Both the position numbers and the translations under genes were made by a program. DNA of 64,000 bases, from positions 1 to 64,000 of the forward strand of contig NZ_VKHP01000004.1 of the NCBI RefSeq assembly GCF_010811875.1, written 5' to 3'. Source of the DNA: Bradyrhizobium uaiense. Its GTDB lineage: Bacteria; Pseudomonadota; Alphaproteobacteria; Rhizobiales; Xanthobacteraceae. Positions 11,572 through 40,586 of this stretch are shown here, piece by piece. The notes under the pieces are model-generated. The model did no database searches and was not told the DNA's origin. It saw only the letters and a program-made list of their open reading frames with translations. Numbering within the stretch: position 1 is the first letter of the stretch; the number at the start of each line of letters is the position of its first letter.

Positions 11572-13275
11572 ATGACCGTCATCGGCTGGATTCAAATTAT
11601 TCTATTTTGCGCGATCGTGATCGCGCTGGTCAAACCGCTCGGCTGGTACATGACCCGCGTGTTCAGCGGCGAGCGCACCTTCCTCTCCCCCGTGCTGCGC
11701 CCCCTCGAGCGCGGCATCTACTGGGTCGGCGGCGTCGACGAGCGGCGCGAGCAGCATTGGCTGACCTATACGGTCGCGATGCTGCTGTTCCATGTCGGCG
11801 GCTTCGCCCTGATCTACGGCCTGATGCGGTTGCAGGCGGTGCTGCCGTTCAACCCGGCCGGCCAGACCGCGGTTGCCGAGGATCTCTCGTTCAACACTGC
11901 GATCTCCTTCATCACCAACACCAACTGGCAGAACTACGGCGGCGAGAGCACGCTGTCCTATCTGGTCCAGATGCTGGGCCTGACCCACCAGAACTTCCTG
12001 TCGGCGGCGACCGGCATCGCGCTGGCGATGGCGCTGATCCGCGGCTTCACCCGCTCGTCGATGCGCACGGTCGGTAATTTCTGGGTCGACGTCACGCGCT
12101 GCACGCTCTACGTGCTGCTGCCGATCTGCATCGTTTATGCGCTGTTCCTGGTCTGGCAGGGCATGCCGCAGACGCTCGGCGCTTATGTCGATGCCGCCAC
12201 GCTTGAGGGCGGCAAGCAGACCATCGCGCTCGGACCTGTCGCTTCGCAGGTTGCGATCAAGATGCTTGGCACCAATGGCGGCGGCTTCTTCAATGCTAAC
12301 GCCGCGCATCCGTTCGAGAATCCGACCGCGCTGTCCAACCTCGTGCAGATGATCTCGATCTTCGCGCTGGGTGCGGCGCTGACGAATGTGTTCGGCCGCA
12401 TGGTCGGCAACCAGCGCCAGGGCTGGGCGATCTTCGCCGTGATGGGCATCCTGTTCGTCGCCGGCGTCACCGTCACCTATTGGGCGGAAGCCAACGGCAC
12501 CTCGGCGCTGCAGGCGCTGGGTCTCACCGGCGGTAACATGGAGGGCAAGGAGGTCCGCTTCGGCGTCGTCGCGTCCTCGCTGTTCGCCGTCGTCACCACC
12601 GCCGCCTCCTGCGGCGCGGTCAATGCCATGCATGACAGCTTCACCGCGCTCGGCGGCATGATCCCGCTGATCAACATGCAGCTTGGCGAAGTCATCATCG
12701 GCGGCGTCGGTGCGGGCCTTTACGGCATGCTGCTGTTCGTCGTGCTGGCGATCTTCGTCGCCGGCCTGATGGTCGGCCGTACGCCGGAATATGTCGGCAA
12801 GAAGATCGAGGCGCGCGAGGTCAAGATGGCGATGCTTGCGATCCTGGTGCTGCCGCTGATGTATCTCGGCTGGACCGCGGTCGGCGTGGTGCTGCCGTCG
12901 GCGGTGGCCTCGATGGCCAATGCCGGTCCGCACGGCTTCACCGAGGTGCTCTATGCCTACACCTCGGGAACCGGCAACAACGGTTCGGCGTTCGCGGGCC
13001 TCACCGGCAACACCCTGTTCTACAATCTGACGCTCGCGATGGCGATGTTCGTCGGCCGCTTCTTCATGATCGTGCCGGCGATGGCCATTGCAGGTTCGCT
13101 GGTCGAGAAGAAGTCGATCCCGGCCTCGGCGGGCACCTTCCCGACCACCGGCGGCCTGTTCGTCGGCCTTGTCATCGGCGTGATCCTGATCATCGGCGGT
13201 CTCACCTTCTTCCCGGCGCTGGCGCTCGGGCCGATCGTCGAGCACCTCGCCATGAACGCCAACACCCTGTTCTGA
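11572..13275 (+). CDS. kdpA: KdpA, potassium-binding channel subunit of the Kdp ATPase
   Basis: 567 residues, about ten membrane helices, usual family length. KdpA is the superfamily-of-K+-transporters subunit that selects K+ on the periplasmic side. Selectivity-loop segments are visible: [32 protein letters not shown] and, later, [14 protein letters not shown]. The ATG follows GAAAGG and lies 4 bases after the third micro-ORF. First of the large kdpABC genes for high-affinity, ATP-driven K+ uptake in low K+ or osmotic stress. kdpB begins 23 bases after its stop. Confidence 0.98.
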
Positions 13276-15526: not shown

Positions 15527-16132
15527 ATGTTGAAAGAAATTCGCCCCGCCATTCTCGTGCTGGTTCTGCTGACCGCGATCACGGGCCTTGCCTATCCGCT
15601 CGCCATGACGGCGATCGCCGGCGTCATCTTTCCGAAGCAGGCGCAAGGCAGCCTGATCGAGAAGGACGGCAAGGTGATCGGCTCCGCTTTGATCGGGCAG
15701 GAGTTCAAGGAGGACAAATACTTCCATGGCCGGCCGTCGGCGACGGTCGCGCCCGATCCGAACGATTCCTCCAAGACCGTGCCGGCGCCCTACAACGCGG
15801 CCAATTCCGGCGGCTCCAACCTCGGTCCGACCAGCAAGGCGCTGAACGATCGGGTCAAGGAGGATGTCGAGAGGCTGAAGGCGGAGAACCCCTCCGCCGG
15901 CGTGCCGGTCGATCTCGTCACCACCTCCGCCAGCGGCCTCGATCCGGACATCTCGCCGGACGCCGCGCTGTTCCAGGTGCCGCGGGTGGCCAAGGCGCGC
16001 AGCATGTCGGAAGATGTGGTGCGTGAGCTGGTGACGCAGAACACGCAAGGCCGCTTCGCCGGCGTGATCGGCGAGCCCCGCGTTAACGTTCTTGCGCTCA
16101 ACCTGGCGCTCGACGCAGCAAAGGCGAAATAG
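15527..16132 (+). CDS. kdpC: KdpC, stabilising subunit of the Kdp ATPase
   Basis: 201 residues. One N-terminal transmembrane helix ([20 protein letters not shown]) followed by a periplasmic domain, the standard KdpC layout. Family segments seen: [51 protein letters not shown] in VAKAR, and a C-terminal [19 protein letters not shown] lies 8 bases before the ATG. It helps couple KdpB to KdpA and is needed for complex stability. A repeat element precedes it; kdpD starts 39 bases later. Confidence 0.97.
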
Positions 16133-16171
16133 GGGAGTAGGCCCGCTCTCGCAGGATGACTATATTGCGGT

Positions 16172-18883
16172 ATGGCCAATCAGCGTGACCCCCACAAACG
16201 ACCCTCGCCGGATGCGCTGCTGGAGGCGGCGCGCCGGGAGACCGATCGCTCGGGGCGGCTGAAGATCTTCATCGGCGCCGCGCCCGGTGTCGGCAAGACC
16301 TACGAGATGCTCTCGAGCGCCCACGCCCGCCTCAAGGCGGGCGTGGACGTCGTGGTCGGTGTCGTCGAAACCCACGGCCGGATGGAGACCGAGGCGCTGC
16401 TCAGGGGTCTCGAAGTGATCCCGCGGAAGCGGCTGGCCTATCGCGACCAGACGCTCGAGGAAATGGACCTCGATGCCGTGATCGCGCGGCGCCCTCAGCT
16501 CGCGCTGGTCGACGAGCTCGCCCACACCAATGCACCGGGCAGCCGGCATCCCAAGCGCTATCTCGATGTCGAGGAGCTGCTGTCGCACGGCATCGACGTC
16601 TACACCGCGATCAACATTCAGCACATCGAGAGCCTCAACGACGTCGTCGCGCAGATCACCCATGTGCGGGTGCGCGAGACCGTGCCCGACTCGGTGGTCG
16701 ATCGCGCCCATGCGATCGAGCTGATCGACCTCACGCCCGACGACCTGATCCAGCGGCTGAAGGAGGGCAAGGTCTATGTGCCCAAGCAGGCCGAGCGGGC
16801 GCTGGAGCACTATTTCTCGCCCGGCAATCTGACCGCGCTGCGCGAGCTGGCACTGCGCCGCACCGCCGAGCGGGTCGACGAGCAGCTGCTCAACCACATG
16901 CAGGCCAATGCGATCCAGGGCCCGTGGGCCGCCGGCGAGCGGATTCTTGTTTGCCTGAGCGAGGACCCGCGCGCGGCAGGCCTCGTGCGCTACACCAAAC
17001 GGTTGGCCGACCGGCTGCACGCGCAATGGACCGCCGTCAGCATCGAGACGCGACGCAGCCTGCAACTGAGCGACGAGCAGCGCGACCGCCTGGCCGATAC
17101 CATGCGGCTTGCGGAATCGCTCGGCGGCGAGGCGTTGACGCTGCCCGGTGTCGGCCGCCGCATCGCCGACGACGTCATCAATTTTGCGCAAGCCAACAAC
17201 GTCACCCAGATCATCATCGGCAAATCGACGCGTTCGCGCTGGTTCGAGCTGACGCACGGCTCCGTGGTGCACGATCTGGTGCGCCGCGCCGGCAATATCA
17301 GCGTCAACGTGATCGCCGGCGACGAGCTGCCGGTCGGCAAGGCGGCGGTGCAGACCGCGCAGCGGCAGGAGCCGTTCAACCCGCGGCCTTACCTGATGGC
17401 GCTGCTGCTGACGGCGATCGGGCTCGGCGCGGCCAAGCTGATCCAGCCGTTCTTCGGCATCGAGAATGTCGACCTCGTGTTCATCACCGCCGTGGTCGGC
17501 GCTGCGGCGCGCTACGGCCTGTGGCCGTCGCTGCTGGCGAGCGTCGCCGCCTCGCTGTGCTACAATTTCTTCTTCCTGCCGCCGGTCTATACCTTCACCA
17601 TCACCGACCCGACCAACGTCGCGGCGTTCTTCTTCTTCATGCTGATCGCGTTGCTGGTCTCCAACGTCGCGGCGCGGGTGCGCACCCAGGCCGACACCGC
17701 GATCGGCCGCGTCCGCACCACCGAGTCGCTCTATGCCTTCAGCCGCAAGCTCGCGGGCACCGCGACGCTGGACGACGTGTTGTGGGCGACCGCCTACCAG
17801 ATCGCGCTGATGCTGAAGGTGCGTGTGGTGTTGCTGCTGCCGGAGGGCGGCATGCTGACCGTCAAGAGCGGCTATCCGCCGGAGGACCAGCTCGATCAGG
17901 CCGATCTCGCCGCCGCCAACTGGGCCTGGGGCAACGACCGCCCGGCAGGCCGCGGCTCGGACACGCTGCCCGGCGGAAAGCGGCTGTTCCTGCCGATGCG
18001 CACCGGCCGCGGCCCGATCGGGGTGATCGGCATCGACGACGACCGCACCGGGCCGCTGCTGACGCCGGACCAGCGCCGGCTGCTCGATGCGCTGGTCGAC
18101 CAGGGGGCGCTGGCGATCGAGCGTGTGCTGCTGGTCGAGGACATGGATCGCGTCAAGCGCACGGTGGAATCCGACCGGCTGCGCGGCGCACTCCTGACCT
18201 CGATCTCGCACGACCTCAAGACGCCGCTGGCCTCGGTGCTCGGCTCGGCCTCGGCGCTGCGCGATCTCGGCGCCAACCTGAGCGACGCCCAGAAGCATGA
18301 CCTGCTCGCGACCGTGATCGACGAGTCGGAGCGGCTCAATCGTTTCATCGCCAATCTGCTCGACATGACCAAGCTGGAGTCAGGCGCGATCGTGCCCAAC
18401 ACCGCACGGCACGACGTCGGCGAGATCGTTGGCAGCGCGCTGCGTCGCGCCGCCAAGATCCTGGTGCATCACCGGGTGTCGCTGGAGCTCGCGGCCGATC
18501 TGCCGATGCTGGAGCTTGACGCCGTGCTGTTCGAGCAGGTGCTGTTCAATCTGCTCGACAACGCCGCCAAGTACGCCCCATCGGACACCACGATCTCGAT
18601 CCACGGCGTGCGCGACCGTGACACGATCGCGTTGCAGATACTCGATGAAGGCAACGGTATTCCGGCGGCCGAGCTCGAGAGCGTGTTCGACAAATTCTAT
18701 CGCGCCGAGAAGGGCGACCATGTCCGCCCCGGCACCGGCCTTGGGCTTGCGATCTCGCGCGGCTTCGTCGAGGCAATGCGCGGCACGATCGCGGCGGCCA
18801 ACCGCTCCGACCGGAGCGGCGCCGTCATCACCATCCGCCTGCCGATCCCGGCCGACACCAACGCGCTGGACACTGTTGCATGA
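16172..18883 (+). CDS. kdpD: KdpD, sensor histidine kinase for K+/osmotic status
   Basis: 903 residues, full length. Domains in order: KdpD N-terminal domain with Walker A GAAPGVGKT (residues 35-43), a universal-stress-protein-like domain (QIIIGKSTRSRW), four closely spaced transmembrane helices around residues 400-510, a GAF-like segment, the HisKA box SISHDLKTPLAS with the phospho-accepting histidine near residue 680, and an HATPase domain with NLLDNAAKYAP and GTGLGLAIS. It senses low K+ or turgor loss and phosphorylates KdpE. Its stop overlaps the kdpE start by 4 bases (ATGA), so the two are translationally coupled. Confidence 0.97.
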   Translation: MANQRDPHKRPSPDALLEAARRETDRSGRLKIFIGAAPGVGKTYEMLSSAHARLKAGVDVVVGVVETHGRMETEALLRGLEVIPRKRLAYRDQTLEEMDLDAVIARRPQLALVDELAHTNAPGSRHPKRYLDVEELLSHGIDVYTAINIQHIESLNDVVAQITHVRVRETVPDSVVDRAHAIELIDLTPDDLIQRLKEGKVYVPKQAERALEHYFSPGNLTALRELALRRTAERVDEQLLNHMQANAIQGPWAAGERILVCLSEDPRAAGLVRYTKRLADRLHAQWTAVSIETRRSLQLSDEQRDRLADTMRLAESLGGEALTLPGVGRRIADDVINFAQANNVTQIIIGKSTRSRWFELTHGSVVHDLVRRAGNISVNVIAGDELPVGKAAVQTAQRQEPFNPRPYLMALLLTAIGLGAAKLIQPFFGIENVDLVFITAVVGAAARYGLWPSLLASVAASLCYNFFFLPPVYTFTITDPTNVAAFFFFMLIALLVSNVAARVRTQADTAIGRVRTTESLYAFSRKLAGTATLDDVLWATAYQIALMLKVRVVLLLPEGGMLTVKSGYPPEDQLDQADLAAANWAWGNDRPAGRGSDTLPGGKRLFLPMRTGRGPIGVIGIDDDRTGPLLTPDQRRLLDALVDQGALAIERVLLVEDMDRVKRTVESDRLRGALLTSISHDLKTPLASVLGSASALRDLGANLSDAQKHDLLATVIDESERLNRFIANLLDMTKLESGAIVPNTARHDVGEIVGSALRRAAKILVHHRVSLELAADLPMLELDAVLFEQVLFNLLDNAAKYAPSDTTISIHGVRDRDTIALQILDEGNGIPAAELESVFDKFYRAEKGDHVRPGTGLGLAISRGFVEAMRGTIAAANRSDRSGAVITIRLPIPADTNALDTVA

Positions 18884-19569
18884 ACGCGACACCCATCAAG
18901 GTCCTGGTCATCGACGACGAGCCGCCGATCCGCAAGCTGCTGCGGATGGGGCTCAGCACCCAGGGCTACGACATCCTGGAAGCCTCCAACGGCAAGATCG
19001 CCCTGGAGATGCTGGCCGAGGGGCCGGCGCTGATCATCCTCGATCTCGGACTGCCCGATATCCAGGGCCACGACCTCCTGCGCATGATCCGCGGCCGCAA
19101 CGAGAGCGTTCCGGTGGTGGTGCTGTCGAGCCGCGGCGACGAGGCCGGCAAGGTGCAGGCGCTCGATCTCGGCGCCGACGACTATCTGACCAAGCCGTTC
19201 GGCATGGACGAATTGCTGGCGCGGCTGCGCGCGGCGCTGCGCCACCAGTTGCAGGTGCAGGGCGAGCGGCCGGTGTTCCGCTCCGGCGATCTCGCGGTCG
19301 ATCTGGTGCGGCGGATCGTCAAGGTCGGCGACAAGGAGATCAAGCTGTCGCCGAAGGAATATGACCTGCTGCGCGTGCTGGTTCAGCACGCCGGCAAGGT
19401 GCTGACGCATCGCTTCCTGCTGAAGGAGTTGTGGGACGAGCTGACCGACGCGCAATATTTGCGTGTCTATGTGCGCCAGCTCCGCCAGAAGATCGAGGCC
19501 GACCCCGAGCGCCCGCAATTCGTGCTGACCGAGACCGGCATCGGCTATCGGCTGCGCGCGGCAGACTAG
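18880..19569 (+). CDS. kdpE: KdpE, OmpR-family response regulator
   Basis: 229 residues. Receiver domain with the acidic pair (VIDDEPP), the phospho-accepting Asp55 in LDLGLPD, the switch Ser in VVLSSRG and Lys in DYLTKPFG. A C-terminal winged-helix DNA-binding domain follows, with KLSPKEYDLLRVL, HRFLLKELW and LRVYVRQLRQKIE. It activates the kdp promoter when phosphorylated by KdpD. Last gene of the kdp operon. No classical T-rich KdpE box was identified upstream of the operon; the TTATA...TATAA dyad at 11139 is a candidate. Confidence 0.97.
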   Translation: MNATPIKVLVIDDEPPIRKLLRMGLSTQGYDILEASNGKIALEMLAEGPALIILDLGLPDIQGHDLLRMIRGRNESVPVVVLSSRGDEAGKVQALDLGADDYLTKPFGMDELLARLRAALRHQLQVQGERPVFRSGDLAVDLVRRIVKVGDKEIKLSPKEYDLLRVLVQHAGKVLTHRFLLKELWDELTDAQYLRVYVRQLRQKIEADPERPQFVLTETGIGYRLRAAD

Positions 19570-19960: not shown

Positions 19961-20851
19961 TTATCCCGCCTTGCGCGATCGCGCGCTCGACCGGTGCGCC
20001 TTCTTGGCGGTACGGCGTTGCGCGGCCGGGCGCCGTGCGCTGGAGCCTGAGCGCCTGGCGCCGCCTTTCCGGTCCTTCAGGCTCTGCTTCAGCGCGTCCA
20101 TCAGGCTCACCACATTGCTTGGCTTCTCCTCGCGCGCGGCGGCCTTGATCGGCTTGCCGGCGGCCTTGCGGCGGACCAGCGCCTTCAGCGCGGTCTCGTA
20201 TTCGTCCTTGAATTTCGACGGGTCGAAATGGCCGGCCTTGCTGTCCAGGATATGGCCGGCAAGCTCGATCATGTCCTTGGTCACTTTCGGGCTCTTGATG
20301 TCATCGAAATAATCGTCGGCCTCGCGCACCTCGTAGGGGTAGCGCAGGGTGGTGCCGAGCATGCCCTTGTCGAGTGGTTCGATCGCGATCACGTGTTCGC
20401 GGTTGGTCAGCACGATCCGCGCCAGCGCGACCCGGTCCTGGTCCTTCATGGCGTCGCGGATCACCGCGAAGGCGTCGACGCCGGCCTTGCCGTCGGGCCT
20501 GATGTAATAGGGGTGGTCGAGATAGCGCTTGTCGATCTCGCCCTCGGGCACGAAACTGTCGATATCGATGGTGTGGTTGCTCTCGATCTCGACCGCCTCG
20601 AGCTCGTCCTTCTCGATCTCGACATATTTGCCCTTGCTTACCTCGTAGCCGCGGCCCTTCTGGTCGCCCTCGACGATATCGCCGGTCTCGGTATCGACCA
20701 TCTGCTGCTTCAGCCGGTTGCCGGTCTCCCGGTTGATCATGTGGAAGCGCGTCTTCTCGACTGTGGTCGAGGCCGGGTAGAGCGCCACGGGGCACGACAC
20801 CAGCGAGAGTTTGAGCGTGCCTTTCCAGTAGGCGCGGGGAGCAGCCATCAT
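19961..20851 (-). CDS. ku: Ku, DNA-end-binding protein of NHEJ
   Basis: 296 residues from the ATG at 20851; the adjacent ATG at 20848 has better spacing from GGAG and is equally possible. Bacterial Ku is a homodimeric ring that binds DNA double-strand ends and recruits LigD. Family features: RAYWKGTLKLSLVSCPVALYP at the N-terminus, FHMINRETGNRLKQ, GYEVSKGKYVEIEKDEL, YIRPDGKAG and MLGTTLRYPYEVR. The C-terminal tail after about residue 255 is basic and Ser/Arg/Ala-rich (RRSGSSARRPAAQRRTAKKA), an extended tail that in other species adds DNA binding. Divergent from ligD. A perfect EcfG-type promoter lies about 25-55 bases upstream. Confidence 0.97.
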   Translation of the reverse strand: MMAAPRAYWKGTLKLSLVSCPVALYPASTTVEKTRFHMINRETGNRLKQQMVDTETGDIVEGDQKGRGYEVSKGKYVEIEKDELEAVEIESNHTIDIDSFVPEGEIDKRYLDHPYYIRPDGKAGVDAFAVIRDAMKDQDRVALARIVLTNREHVIAIEPLDKGMLGTTLRYPYEVREADDYFDDIKSPKVTKDMIELAGHILDSKAGHFDPSKFKDEYETALKALVRRKAAGKPIKAAAREEKPSNVVSLMDALKQSLKDRKGGARRSGSSARRPAAQRRTAKKAHRSSARSRKAG

Positions 20852-20873
20852 CGTCTCCAAACAGCTTGAGTTT

Positions 20874-20898
20874 GGAACTTGAACGGATACCGTAGGTT
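20874..20898 (+). promoter_or_regulatory. EcfG-type promoter candidate for ligD
   Basis: GGAAC at 20874-20878, 16-base spacer, GGTT at 20895-20898; the alphaproteobacterial general-stress sigma factor consensus is GGAAC-N16/17-CGTT. It points toward ligD, whose GTG start lies 54 bases beyond. It overlaps the minus-strand promoter for ku almost completely. Confidence 0.55.
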
Positions 20899-20906
20899 TT
20901 GGTTCC
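20882..20906 (-). promoter_or_regulatory. EcfG-type promoter candidate for ku
   Basis: On the minus strand: GGAAC at 20906-20902, 16-base spacer, CGTT at 20885-20882, an exact match to the general-stress consensus. The expected transcription start, about 7-8 bases further on, leaves a leader of roughly 25 bases before the ku ATG. Confidence 0.68.
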
Positions 20907-20952
20907 TGATGGCCGCACGGGCGGCGGCCGCCGTTTGTCCCGAGGCCTTTAC

Positions 20953-23583
20953 GTGTCGCTGAGAAATCTCACCACCTATCGCAAGAAGCGCGACTTCGAG
21001 AAGACCAATGAGCCGTCGGGCGAGGTCAGGGTCGCGCCAGCGAAGCAGCGGCGCTTCGTGATCCAGAAGCATGATGCGACGCGGCTGCATTATGATTTCA
21101 GGCTGGAGTTCGACGGCGTCTTCAAGTCCTGGGCGGTGACGCGCGGGCCCTCGCTCGATCCGCATGACAAGCGGCTCGCGGTCGAGGTCGAGGATCATCC
21201 GCTCGACTATGGCGATTTCGAAGGCACCATTCCCGAAGGCCAGTATGGCGGCGGCACGGTGCAGCTGTGGGATCGCGGCACCTGGGAATCTGACGATCCC
21301 GAGCGTGGCTTCAAGAAGGGCGACCTGAAGTTCACGCTGCATGGCGACAAGCTGCACGGCAGCTGGGTGCTGGTGCGGATGAAGAACGATCGCACCGGCG
21401 GCAAACGTACCAACTGGCTGCTGATCAAGCACCGAGATGAGTATGCCGTCGATGGCAACGGCGAAGCAATCCTCGCCGAGGACCGCTCGGTTGCCTCCGG
21501 CCGTTCGATGGAGCAGATCGCAGCCGGCAAGGGTCGGGCGCCGAAGCCGTTCATGCTGGCGAAGGGCAGTGGCAAAGCCAAGGCGGACGCGGTCTGGCAA
21601 TCCAGTCACGGCATGGCGGCGGACGCGCGCGCCAAAACCAAGGCGCCGGCGCCGAAAGCAAAGCTGAAGGAACGACCGAAGGCGACGTCGAAGCAGGTGA
21701 CGGAGATGCCCGATTTCGTCACGCCGCAGCTCTGCGCCGCGGTCGAGAGCCCGCCAAATGGCGCGGGCTGGTGCCACGAGATCAAGTTCGACGGCTATCG
21801 CGTGCAGCTTCGCGTCGAGGACGGTGAGGCCGTGCTGAAGACCCGCAAGGGGCTCGACTGGTCCGACAAGTTTGGCGCGATCGTGAAGGAGGCCGGCAAG
21901 CTGCCGGATGCCCTGATAGATGGCGAGATCGTCGCGCTCGACGAGAAAGGCATCCCGCATTTTTCGACGTTGCAGGCGGCGCTCTCGGACGGCAAGACCG
22001 GTCAGTTGATCTTCTACGCGTTCGACCTGCTGTTTGCCGGCCACGAGGATCTGCGCCCGCTGCCACTCACCGCGCGCAAGGCGCGGCTCAAGGCGCTGCT
22101 CGCTGCCCGCAAGGGCAAGAACCCTCTGATCCGTTATGTCGAGCATTTCGAGCAGCGTGGCGACGCCGTGCTGGACTCGGCGCGCGAGCTCGGGCTGGAA
22201 GGTATCGTCTCCAAGAAGCTCGACGGCGCCTATCGGTCGGGCCGGTCCGATGACTGGACCAAGGCCAAGATCCGCGCCGGCCATGAGGTGGTGATCGGTG
22301 GCTGGAAGGATACCAACGGCAAATTCCGCTCGCTGATGGCGGGCGTCTATCGCGGCGATCATCTGGCCTTTGTCGGCATCGTCGGCACCGGCTTCGGCCA
22401 GGACACCGTTCGCCGCATCATGCCGGCGCTGAAGGCGGCGGCATCGGACACCAGCCCGTTCGGCGGCAAGAATGCGCCGAAGAAGACCCGCGACGTGCAC
22501 TGGCTGAAGCCCGAACTGGTCGCCGAGATCGAGTTCGCCGGCTGGACTGATGCTCAGAATATCCGCCAGGCGGCGTTCAAGGGCCTGCGCCAGGACAAGC
22601 CGGCGCATGAGGTCGAGGCCGAACGGCCGGTCGTAACCAAGGTGGTGAAGCCGATGGCAAGAGGCGTGGCGAAAAAGGGGACTGCCGAGGTAATGGGTGT
22701 CGTCATCTCCCATCCCGACAAGGCGCTGTGGCCGGATGCCGGCGATGCCGAGCCAGTGACCAAGCTCGATCTCGCCAACTATTTCGCTGCGGTCGGCGAA
22801 TGGATGATCGGATACCTTAAGGGCCGGCCGTGCTCGATCGTGCGCGCGCCTGACGGCATCAAGGGCGAGACTTTCTTCCAGCGCCACGCGATGGCGGGCA
22901 CGTCGAAGCTCCTGAAGCTCGCCAAGGTCTCCGGCGACCGCAAGCCCTATCTGCAGATTGATCAGGTCGAGGGGCTCGCCGCGGTCGCGCAGCTCGGCGG
23001 CCTTGAGCTGCATCCCTGGAATTGTGCGCCCGATGCCTACGACACGCCGAGCCGGCTGGTGTTCGATCTCGATCCCGCGCCCGATGTCGCGTTCTCCGAC
23101 GTGATCGACGCTGCCAAAGACATGCGCCAGCGGCTCACCGCGGTCGGCCTCGAGAGCTTCTGCAAGACCACCGGCGGCAAGGGTCTCCACGTCGTGGCGC
23201 CGCTCTCCTCAGGCGCGAAGGACAAGGTGACGTGGAAGGAGGCCAAGGCGTTCGCGCAAGCGATCTGCCAGTGGATGGCGCAGGATGACCCCGAACGCTA
23301 CCTGATCAACATGTCGAAGGCCAAGCGCACCGGAAAGATCTTCCTCGACTATCTGCGCAACGACCGGCTCTCGACCGCGGTCGCGGTGCTGTCGCCGCGG
23401 GCGCGACCGGGCGCCACCGTGTCGATGCCGCTGACCTGGACCCAGGTGCGCGGCGATCTCGATTCGAAGAAGTACACGGTGCGGTCGGTGCCGGCGCTGC
23501 TCGCGAAGACCAAGGCCTGGGACGGCTATGAGGACGCGGCCTCGTCGATCAAGCCGGCGATGAAGAAGCTCGCGGCATTGTAG
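20953..23583 (+). CDS. ligD: LigD, multidomain NHEJ DNA ligase
   Basis: 876 residues from the GTG at 20953, preceded by GAGG; an in-frame TTG at 20899 falls inside the promoter pair and is rejected. Order is phosphoesterase, ligase, polymerase. The 3'-phosphoesterase domain has [18 protein letters not shown] and RGPSLDP. The ATP-dependent ligase has the nucleotidyl lysine near residue 278 in HEIKFDGYR. The primase-like polymerase has the D-x-D pair near 705/707 in [10 protein letters not shown] and [11 protein letters not shown] Lys/Ala/Pro-rich linker joins the first two domains. It repairs double-strand breaks with Ku by trimming, filling and sealing ends. All three catalytic modules appear intact. 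Confidence 0.97.
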
Positions 23584-36483: not shown

Positions 36484-38433
<1,950 letters not shown>

Positions 38434-38523
38434 GGTGATGCCGCCATTGAAAATGCAAATGACGTCCCGACGCCGGGAAGGAGGCGCGCCAGACCCATAT
38501 AGAAAGCCGCTCGCCGGACAATG

Positions 38524-38558
38524 GTTCCCGGCGGGAACGCTTGATAGGGTAGAGCGTT
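38524..38558 (+). promoter_or_regulatory. EcfG-type promoter toward malQ, overlapping a GTTCCC/GGGAAC dyad
   Basis: GGAAC at 38534-38538, 16-base spacer, CGTT at 38555-38558: exact general-stress consensus, 79 bases before the malQ ATG. The -35 is the right half of GTTCCC-ggc-GGGAAC (38524-38538). The left half gives a GGAAC on the minus strand toward glgE, but the base tetrad 16 bases on is GCTT, so that side fits poorly. Confidence 0.65.
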
Positions 38559-38636
38559 GAACATCAACTATCCCTTTCCCGTATCTGTACAATTTAGCAA
38601 CGATCCCGATACCGTTGCGAGCAAGCAGCGTGCCGA

Positions 38637-40586
38637 ATGGACCTTTACGCCAAAGCCCAGACCCTGGGAATCCAGACCGAGTATATCGATGGTAGCGGTC
38701 ACCGCCGTGTGACAACCCCCGAGGCGCTGACGGCGATCCTCGCGGCGCTGCCGCCCCAGACGCCGCGGCGGATCGTCGCCGATCCCGTGGTCGTCAGAGG
38801 CAGCCATGGTGGGCAAACGCAGCTCGCCGAGACGGCCCGGCTTCCGGTGCAATGGAAGGTCACGAACGGCACCGCGGTGCTTGCGCAGGGCGCGGCGCAT
38901 GAGCGGAATGTGACGTGGCCGTCCGGTCTGGCGGAAGGCGTGCACCGGTTGCAGCTATCGGATGCATCGGGCAGCGAGGAATTGCCGCTGCTGGTGGCGC
39001 CGGAAGGCGCGTTCGGCGGCGCGTTCGATCGCTGCTGGGTGATCGCGGTCCAGCTTTACGGCGTGCGCTCCGCGCGCAATTGGGGCATCGGTGATTTTAC
39101 CGACCTGCAAGCGCTGCTCGAATTCGCCCATCAGCTCGGCGCAGATGGCATCGGGCTCAATCCGCTGCATGCGTTGTTCGACGACCGGCCGGGCGATTGC
39201 AGCCCGTATTCGCCGAACAGTCGGCTGTTCCTCAACGCGCTCTATGTCGACGTCGACCGGATTCCCGAATTCCGCACCGATTCCGAGACGCAAGCCGCGC
39301 TGGCGCAACTGCGCAGCCATGACATGGTCGACTATATCGGCGTCGCGGCGCTGAAATGGCCTGCGCTGCGCGCGGCCTTCGCCGCCTTCAAGGCCAATCC
39401 CGGCCCCGGCCGCCGGCAGGATTTCGAGGCCTATCGCAACGAGCAGGGCACGCTGCTGTCGCGCTTCGCCTGCTTCGAGACGATGCGGCACAAATTCAAC
39501 AAGCCGTGGTGGGAGTGGCCGGACGAATGGCGGCAGCCCAACGACGCGGTCTGCGCCAAATTGCGCGAGGCGCGCGACAGCGCGGCCGAGGTCGAGTTTG
39601 TCGAGTTCGTGCAATGGACCGCGGACCGTCAGCTCGGTGCTTGCCAGGCGCTGGCGCACAAGCTCGGCATGCGGGTCGGGCTCTATCTCGATGTCGCCGT
39701 CGGCGTGCAGTCGGATGGTTTCGACGCCTGGAATGAGCAGGTCGCGATCTCGCGTCATCTCGGCGTCGGCGCGCCGCCGGACCCGCTCAACACCGCGGGC
39801 CAGGACTGGGGACTGGCCGGCTTCAACGCCGCCGGCCTCGAACAGCGCTTGTTCGAGCCGTTCCGGCAGATGCTGCGCGCCTCGATGCACCATGCCGGCG
39901 CGATCAGGCTCGACCATGCCTTCGGGCTGAAGCGGCTTTATCTTGTGCCGGGCGGTTTCGGCCCGGCCAACGGCGCCTATGTGCTGATGCCGTTCGAGGC
40001 GCTGCTGGCGGCGACCGCGCAGGAGAGTGTGGCGAGCCGCTGCGTCGTCATCGGCGAGGACCTCGGCACCGTGCCGCCGGGTTTCCGCGAGCAGATGAAC
40101 GGCTGGGGTATCTGGTCCTATCTTGTGATGATGTTCGAGCAGGATGACCAGCGCGCCTTCCGCAACGCCGACCACTATCTGCCGAATGCGCTGGTCACCT
40201 TCAACACCCACGATCTCTCGACCTATGCCGGCTGGCGCTCGTTCAGCGACCTCAAGACCAAGCGCGCGCTCGGTATTGATCCCGGCGAGACCGACCAGGG
40301 GCGCTGGGACGCGCTGGGTCAGCTCGACGACGTGCTGCGCCGGCACGACATCCACCACAACGACTTCTATTCGGTGGTGAGCTTCATGGCACGGACCCGG
40401 TCGCGGATGATGGCGGTTTCGATGGAGGATCTGCTCGGCATCGTCGAGCAGCCGAATATCCCCGGTACCGTCTACGAGCATCCGAACTGGAAGCGGCGGC
40501 TGCCGGTCCCGCTCGAGCAACTCGCGTCGACGATCGACATCGACGCGCTCAAGCGCGCAACCCGTGAGCGGTCGCACGCAAGATAA
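38637..40586 (+). CDS. malQ: 4-alpha-glucanotransferase (amylomaltase)
   Basis: 649 residues. MalQ (GH77) transfers alpha-1,4-glucan segments between acceptors, reshaping maltodextrin lengths and releasing glucose. Seen: an N-terminal extension rich in beta strands, VIAVQLYGVRSARNWGIGDF, GADGIGLNPLHALFDD, the catalytic aspartate in AIRLDHAFGLKRLYLVP near residue 425, the general acid in VIGEDLGTVPPGF near 474, and TFNTHDLSTYAGW. The ribosome site is weak. Divergent from glgE; it starts 79 bases after an exact EcfG-type promoter and is followed 15 bases later by the GH15 gene. Consistent with recycling short maltodextrins left by GlgX and TreY/TreZ. Confidence 0.95.
   Translation: MDLYAKAQTLGIQTEYIDGSGHRRVTTPEALTAILAALPPQTPRRIVADPVVVRGSHGGQTQLAETARLPVQWKVTNGTAVLAQGAAHERNVTWPSGLAEGVHRLQLSDASGSEELPLLVAPEGAFGGAFDRCWVIAVQLYGVRSARNWGIGDFTDLQALLEFAHQLGADGIGLNPLHALFDDRPGDCSPYSPNSRLFLNALYVDVDRIPEFRTDSETQAALAQLRSHDMVDYIGVAALKWPALRAAFAAFKANPGPGRRQDFEAYRNEQGTLLSRFACFETMRHKFNKPWWEWPDEWRQPNDAVCAKLREARDSAAEVEFVEFVQWTADRQLGACQALAHKLGMRVGLYLDVAVGVQSDGFDAWNEQVAISRHLGVGAPPDPLNTAGQDWGLAGFNAAGLEQRLFEPFRQMLRASMHHAGAIRLDHAFGLKRLYLVPGGFGPANGAYVLMPFEALLAATAQESVASRCVVIGEDLGTVPPGFREQMNGWGIWSYLVMMFEQDDQRAFRNADHYLPNALVTFNTHDLSTYAGWRSFSDLKTKRALGIDPGETDQGRWDALGQLDDVLRRHDIHHNDFYSVVSFMARTRSRMMAVSMEDLLGIVEQPNIPGTVYEHPNWKRRLPVPLEQLASTIDIDALKRATRERSHAR

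Follow-up and report, generated by a model that had tools for sequence, protein, structure and literature searches.

The ku-ligD intergenic region

The window, i.e., the whole stretch of DNA analysed, comprises 64,000 nucleotides of Bradyrhizobium uaiense (contig NZ_VKHP01000004.1 of assembly GCF_010811875.1) and includes two divergent genes of end-joining repair. The first, ku, with the Ku70/Ku80 beta-barrel domain (Pfam PF02735, 5.9e-47), occupies positions 19961..20851 on the minus strand, starts from ATG at 20851 preceded by GGAGACG, and is 99% identical to ku of Bradyrhizobium acaciae. The second, ligD, lies at 20953..23583 on the plus strand, has a probable GTG start at 20953 and encodes phosphoesterase, ligase and primase-polymerase domains in this order (Pfam PF13298, PF01068, PF04679, PF21686). 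Beyond ku, positions 15527-19569 are occupied by kdpC, kdpD and a response-regulator gene that is kdpE-like by position.

Between ku and ligD, positions 20874-20906 (GGAACTTGAACGGATACCGTAGGTTTTGGTTCC) follow the symmetric 33-bp pattern GGAACN3AACN11GTTN3GTTCC with the midpoint at 20890. The predicted EcfG-type promoter directed to ligD is located on the plus strand at 20874..20898 (GGAACTTGAACGGATACCGTAGGTT), with the -35 box GGAAC at 20874-20878, a spacer of 16 nucleotides and the -10 box GGTT at 20895-20898. The one predicted for ku is located on the minus strand at 20882..20906 (GGAACCAAAACCTACGGTATCCGTT), with GGAAC at 20906-20902, the same spacing and CGTT at 20885-20882. This confirms the GGAAC-N16-GGTT and GGAAC-N16-CGTT sites that the original prediction placed on the two strands within 33 bases. 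The -35 boxes are outermost, the -10 boxes lie inside, and the four boxes have no base in common. Both strands thus carry the -35 GGAAC and the -10 (C/G)GTT of EcfG promoters at a spacing of 16-17, GGTT being the ligD -10 whereas CGTT is the commonest form.

According to the geometry of ECF promoters, where transcription starts ~7-9 nt past the -10 box, the predicted start regions are 20904..20908 (plus strand) for ligD and 20872..20876 (minus strand) for ku. Counted from there, the leaders would be ~23 nt for ku and ~47 nt for ligD if the latter starts at GTG 20953, which agrees with the suggestion that each promoter sits at the right distance from its gene. The first codon of the ligD reading frame, TTG 20899, was rejected as the translation start because it would sit upstream of the predicted transcription start, and GTG 20953 is the most likely one. 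The codon at this position, tallied over 67 loci, was GTG in 36, GTC in 26 and another one in 5. By eye, GTG was found at or one codon from it in 15 of 17 relatives, sitting one codon further in in the Bradyrhizobium japonicum-type rows; the exceptions were TTG in locus L063 and locus L022, which has no ligD at that place.

The symmetry of the block would also suit a single palindromic operator, bound by a dimeric regulator of both genes and resembling EcfG sites only incidentally. The arms GGAAC/GTTCC and AAC/GTT are indeed symmetric about 20890, but we regard this explanation as improbable, for reasons given below along with the data on related loci. The motif GTTC-N7-GTTC is the LexA (SOS) operator of Alphaproteobacteria, and no such sequence was present in 20800-20960, which also speaks against the operator. 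A sigma-70 promoter scan of 20780-21000 gave no match either, although shuffled sequences likewise scored 0.0, so that this result is of low information.

Frequency of the block in the genome, family and class

The window contains seven single motifs (spacers of 15-18) against a shuffle mean of 2.19, a number reached in 1 of 100 shuffles. Genome-wide, the single motif GGAAC-N16/17-SGTT was not enriched, with 266 occurrences versus 339 for the reversed control pattern. The 33-bp block, on the other hand, was found once in the 9.97-Mb genome and its reversed control not at all. A looser search of the genome, for a plus-strand site with GTTCC 0-14 bp further on, returned seven matches in six places (control, ten), and only the place in the window had a spacing of 16-17 on both strands. 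It should be added that an alternative register, with each -10 box inside the opposite -35 box, was seen in at least three places among the genome matches listed and at the family ku locus L161, where the sites overlap but in a register different from that of the block; on a rough estimate only, these places were set aside as likely chance overlap. Furthermore, another of the six places, 1978-2021 of contig C647, has EcfG-like sites facing each other, with a spacing of 17 on one strand and 15 on the other.

In the draw of genomes from the family, the block was detected in 16 of 119 genomes and 6 of 47 genera, in one copy each, with the control at zero throughout, and all 16 blocks were flanked by ku and ligD. 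The Ku protein was also searched against 61 of the family genomes; seven have a Ku at least 72% identical, and all seven were among the 16 block-bearers. In the draw from the class, the block occurred in 2 of 385 genomes, both from the genus of the window, and the reversed control also in 2 of 385, both outside this genus. The block, unlike the single motif, exceeds chance.

Conservation at ku loci of relatives

Loci carrying ku were picked by protein similarity alone, irrespective of the motif; of 198 confirmed loci the best 80 were used, and sites were scored as GGAAC-N16/17-NGTT within 170 bp upstream of ku. All 80 loci had the ku-directed site, 74 had the ligD-directed one and 74 had both, and the reversed motif occurred in none; with C or G required as the first letter of the -10 box, the counts were 79, 71 and 70, respectively. 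Conservation of both boxes in relatives had been proposed as a check of the original prediction, and the 74 loci with both sites bear it out. Atypical -10 boxes were TGTT (L036, L075) and AGTT (L022) on the ligD side and AGTT (L027) on the ku side. The locus L052 is a contig of a Mucilaginibacter-labelled metagenome-assembled genome (MAG) bearing a Tardiphaga/Bradyrhizobium-like ku-ligD pair with the block, and is most likely mis-binned.

The register of the sites was counted over the 80 loci plus the window, 73 of these rows having ligD no more than 200 bp from ku. The exact 33-bp block was present in 71 of the 73, the window included, and the two exceptions, L027 and L046, had both sites with a ligD spacer of 17. 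The 71 exact blocks represent 43 distinct 33-mers. Box columns are invariant by the definition of the block, and the centre columns 14-16 carry 0.00-0.15 bit; since these are near-random among the distinct 33-mers, the boxes have been retained while many substitutions accumulated. The distance to ku also varies, the left edge of the block lying from ~52 to 105 bp ahead of the gene in joined loci, with the inner register near constant. The predicted promoters thus combine conserved boxes with a free spacer, as EcfG promoters do, and, judging from these alignments, their interleaved layout has been maintained by evolution in Bradyrhizobium and some related bacteria.

The idea that two weak motifs came together by chance and persisted through shared ancestry can be given hardly any credit. 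The single motif is common at random and most of the 80 loci belong to one genus, but the block has been kept in 43 versions with near-random centres and extends to six of the 47 family genera, and its reversed counterpart is missing from all 80 loci.

Several columns are conserved beyond what the two-promoter model demands. On the ku strand, AA at columns 7-8, outside the EcfG boxes, is invariant, and CC at columns 12-13 is mostly kept (40 and 36 of the 43 distinct blocks); conservation also extends to the spacer columns that adjoin the boxes, and the flanks, at 0.32-1.48 bit, are above the spacer centre. Columns 7-8 and 12-13 may perhaps reflect an A-tract in the spacer or the initial region of ligD. 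A palindromic operator would also account for the invariant AA and for a register fixed in 71 of 73 rows; however, L027 and L046 break the exact symmetry and yet retain both sites at a spacing of 16 or 17.

Also to be weighed is the option that ku alone has a genuine EcfG promoter here, with the motif toward ligD a by-product of symmetry and ligD expressed otherwise. The more complete record of the ku-directed site (80 of 80 versus 74 of 80) agrees with it, as do the less usual GGTT of the ligD -10 and its TGTT or AGTT variants in a few loci. We nevertheless consider it as improbable as the operator, owing to the loci in which the two genes are apart.

Loci with separated ku and ligD

Eight of the 80 loci have ligD away from ku, and the six loci devoid of a ligD-directed site near ku are all within these eight, which is at odds with a ligD motif of no function of its own. 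Four genomes of one lineage (G502-G505) each have a ku-side and a ligD-side copy of the sites; in one of their loci, L022, both genes are on the same contig, ~1 kb apart. The ligD-side copies kept the ligD-directed boxes and had the ku -35 altered in four of four cases, while the ku-side copies (L019-L022) kept the ku-directed boxes and had the ligD -35 altered in three of four. In the Bradyrhizobium aeschynomenes group (L042, L043, L045) each gene is preceded by its own site, the ligD-side -10 being TGTT.

Over the 15 separated copies, scored with NGTT allowed, the site of the adjacent gene was present in 15 and that of the other gene in 2 (Fisher p = 1.8e-6, a value that overstates the case, as the copies are related and come from two lineages only). 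Both directions were retained in the ku-side copies of L022 and L023, and the remaining 13 lost the direction not facing the adjacent gene, whereas the two halves of a palindrome should be lost or retained together. Among the ligD-proximal copies scored, all seven had the ligD-directed site and none the ku-directed one, which further argues against ku as the only gene served. The ligD side of L023, a draft MAG, was left unscored, the sole ligD piece there (L110) being the end of the gene. On the ku tree, the arrangement must have switched between joined and separated at least twice, with bootstrap support not fully settled.

Because the separated genes each keep their own site, we favour two promoters under separate selection over one palindromic operator. 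The strict co-induction that the original prediction derived from a shared regulatory core goes further than the data support, and joint control does not need such a core: overlap as a requirement was dropped, as each of the separated genes in two lineages has an EcfG-type site of its own, so that the overlap appears not to be essential.

It should also be mentioned that the DNA between the genes in the two separated lineages (3061-3940 of L022; upstream of ku in L019-L021, L023, L042, L043 and L045) shares pieces of ~70-79% identity over 53-168 bp, plus shorter inverted ones, as though one type of repeat had been inserted on two occasions. In L022, moreover, 26 bp that include part of the promoter block recur on both sides with 92% identity.

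The probable EcfG locus and other sites in the genome

NepR had one match in the genome, and its gene is adjoined by an ECF sigma factor gene and a divergent phyR, an arrangement that we take to be the usual EcfG locus. The best NCBIfam model for the sigma factor is a generic one, and the gene was named EcfG from its place beside nepR and phyR. An EcfG-type sigma factor in this sense, NepR and PhyR are thus encoded in the same genome as the block. The gap between nepR and phyR contains several GGAAC boxes and no strict GGAAC-N15-18-NGTT site, which leaves the local EcfG consensus uncalibrated.

Another GGAAC-N16-CGTT site is situated in the window at 38534-38558 on the plus strand, 78 bp ahead of a 4-alpha-glucanotransferase gene (38637-40586; PF02446) that is divergent from a GlgE-type gene (36484-38715; PF11896). 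A 4-alpha-glucanotransferase appears in the EcfG target table of Sphingomonas melonis (PMC6599016), and the site possibly marks a second stress-regulated operon in the window. The genome has two further ku genes (C1196:9660-10487 and C221:7961-8746); the scan of 170 bp upstream gave no EcfG-type site directed to ku for either of them. The one on contig C1196 has one EcfG-type site facing away (position 4480 of L102), and contig C221 has a partial ku-like match at 12792-13043.

ku loci in other families and published regulons

The class-wide survey covered 190 genomes, 28 of which gave a total of 40 Ku matches, 37 of these matches outside the genome of the window; 28 loci were fetched, and one Ku gene per locus was examined over 200 bp upstream. 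A ku-directed GGAAC-N16/17-NGTT was detected in 14 of the 28 loci (10 with C/G required), versus 0.13 (0.05 with C/G) in mononucleotide shuffles and none for the reversed motif; the other 14 had no ku-directed site within 200 bp. Five of the 28 had a site on the other strand. Predicted stress-type sites before ku are therefore common in the class and not universal, and the single ku-sense motif at half of these loci is again difficult to reconcile with a palindromic operator. Where sites are directed both ways (L172, L175, L181, L182), they stand side by side, unlike the interleaved block.

The position of ligD over 58 family and class loci was downstream and co-directional in 18, divergent upstream in 9 and other in 10, and no ligD was found within the locus in 21. 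In the 37 loci with ligD within the locus, ku was co-directional in 24, and the divergent upstream arrangement occurred in 9, 7 of which bear the block.

Published regulons describe similar sites. The consensus GGAAC-N16-CGTT, with flexible -10 boxes, has been reported for EcfG regulons (PMC7083833, PMC3892343). ku-ligD is within the EcfG regulon of Sphingopyxis granuli (PMC7083833), and ku is a listed member of that of S. melonis (PMC6599016). A review citing other work places both NHEJ pathways of Sinorhizobium meliloti under RpoE2 (PMC12844678), in line with the support that the original prediction had drawn from that species. In Mesorhizobium loti, three of four ku genes are heat-induced (PMC3989490).

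Two probable interleaved promoters and their possible operation

Conservation in relatives, retention of the own site by separated genes, the EcfG, NepR and PhyR genes, the sites in other families and the published control by the general stress response together uphold the predicted pair of divergent EcfG-type promoters, one per gene. We consider it likely that the block represents two complete promoters for EcfG (the ECF15 general-stress sigma factor), interleaved on opposite strands and occupied one at a time. Under stress, EcfG would be released from NepR through PhyR and would bring RNA polymerase to the block in one of two orientations, the first leading to transcription of ku leftward from ~20874 and the second to that of ligD rightward from ~20906. 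The same signal would thus induce both genes, with initiation alternating between them. From the geometry and the comparisons above we infer EcfG recognition, the start sites, mutual exclusion and induction alike. Since each predicted start falls on the outer end of the other promoter's -35 box, a bound polymerase should exclude a second one, and the competition for polymerase that was raised as an option in the original prediction should follow from this geometry.

The block resembles the promoters of EcfG (RpoE2/SigT-type) in its GGAAC -35, its (C/G)GTT -10 and its spacing of 16 (17 in the exceptions), and differs from EcfG promoters elsewhere in that two of them are interleaved on opposite strands. 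Ordinary divergent promoters also provide one promoter per gene, whereas here both are within the same 33 bp. Prokaryotic bidirectional promoters, as described by Warman and Grainger for Escherichia coli and Salmonella, are likewise pseudo-symmetric, and the polymerase orientations predicted for the block are likewise mutually exclusive. Those promoters, as characterised in the cited studies, share one -10 box, are described for sigma-70 and have starts separated mostly by 18 bp, in other cases by 10 or 23 bp (PMC12825309, PMC10268837), whereas the block has a separate -10 and -35 for each direction, a sigma factor of the ECF kind and a start spacing of ~32 bp as predicted from geometry. Without one common -10, the block is not a bidirectional promoter in that sense. 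In view of the regulons above, EcfG control of ku and ligD is already known elsewhere, and we rate the interleaved layout as the new part, an earlier description of it being possible.

In five bidirectional promoters of E. coli, competition was reported to become apparent at high activity only and, in the one case examined, to reduce noise (PMC12825309). Whether interleaving acts as a regulatory device, alternate firing fixing the ku:ligD ratio and damping cell-to-cell noise in what is an error-prone repair pathway, and whether this is why the overlap persists in most of the clade, is a more speculative matter, and we hold such a role to be rather unlikely.

If the block is read as two EcfG promoters, a large group of soil and nodule bacteria has its end-joining repair linked to the general stress response. 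The block would also be a naturally dissected test object, interleaved in most species seen and separated in two lineages, that bears on how polymerase competition at overlapping divergent promoters of one alternative sigma factor may shape expression ratio and noise.
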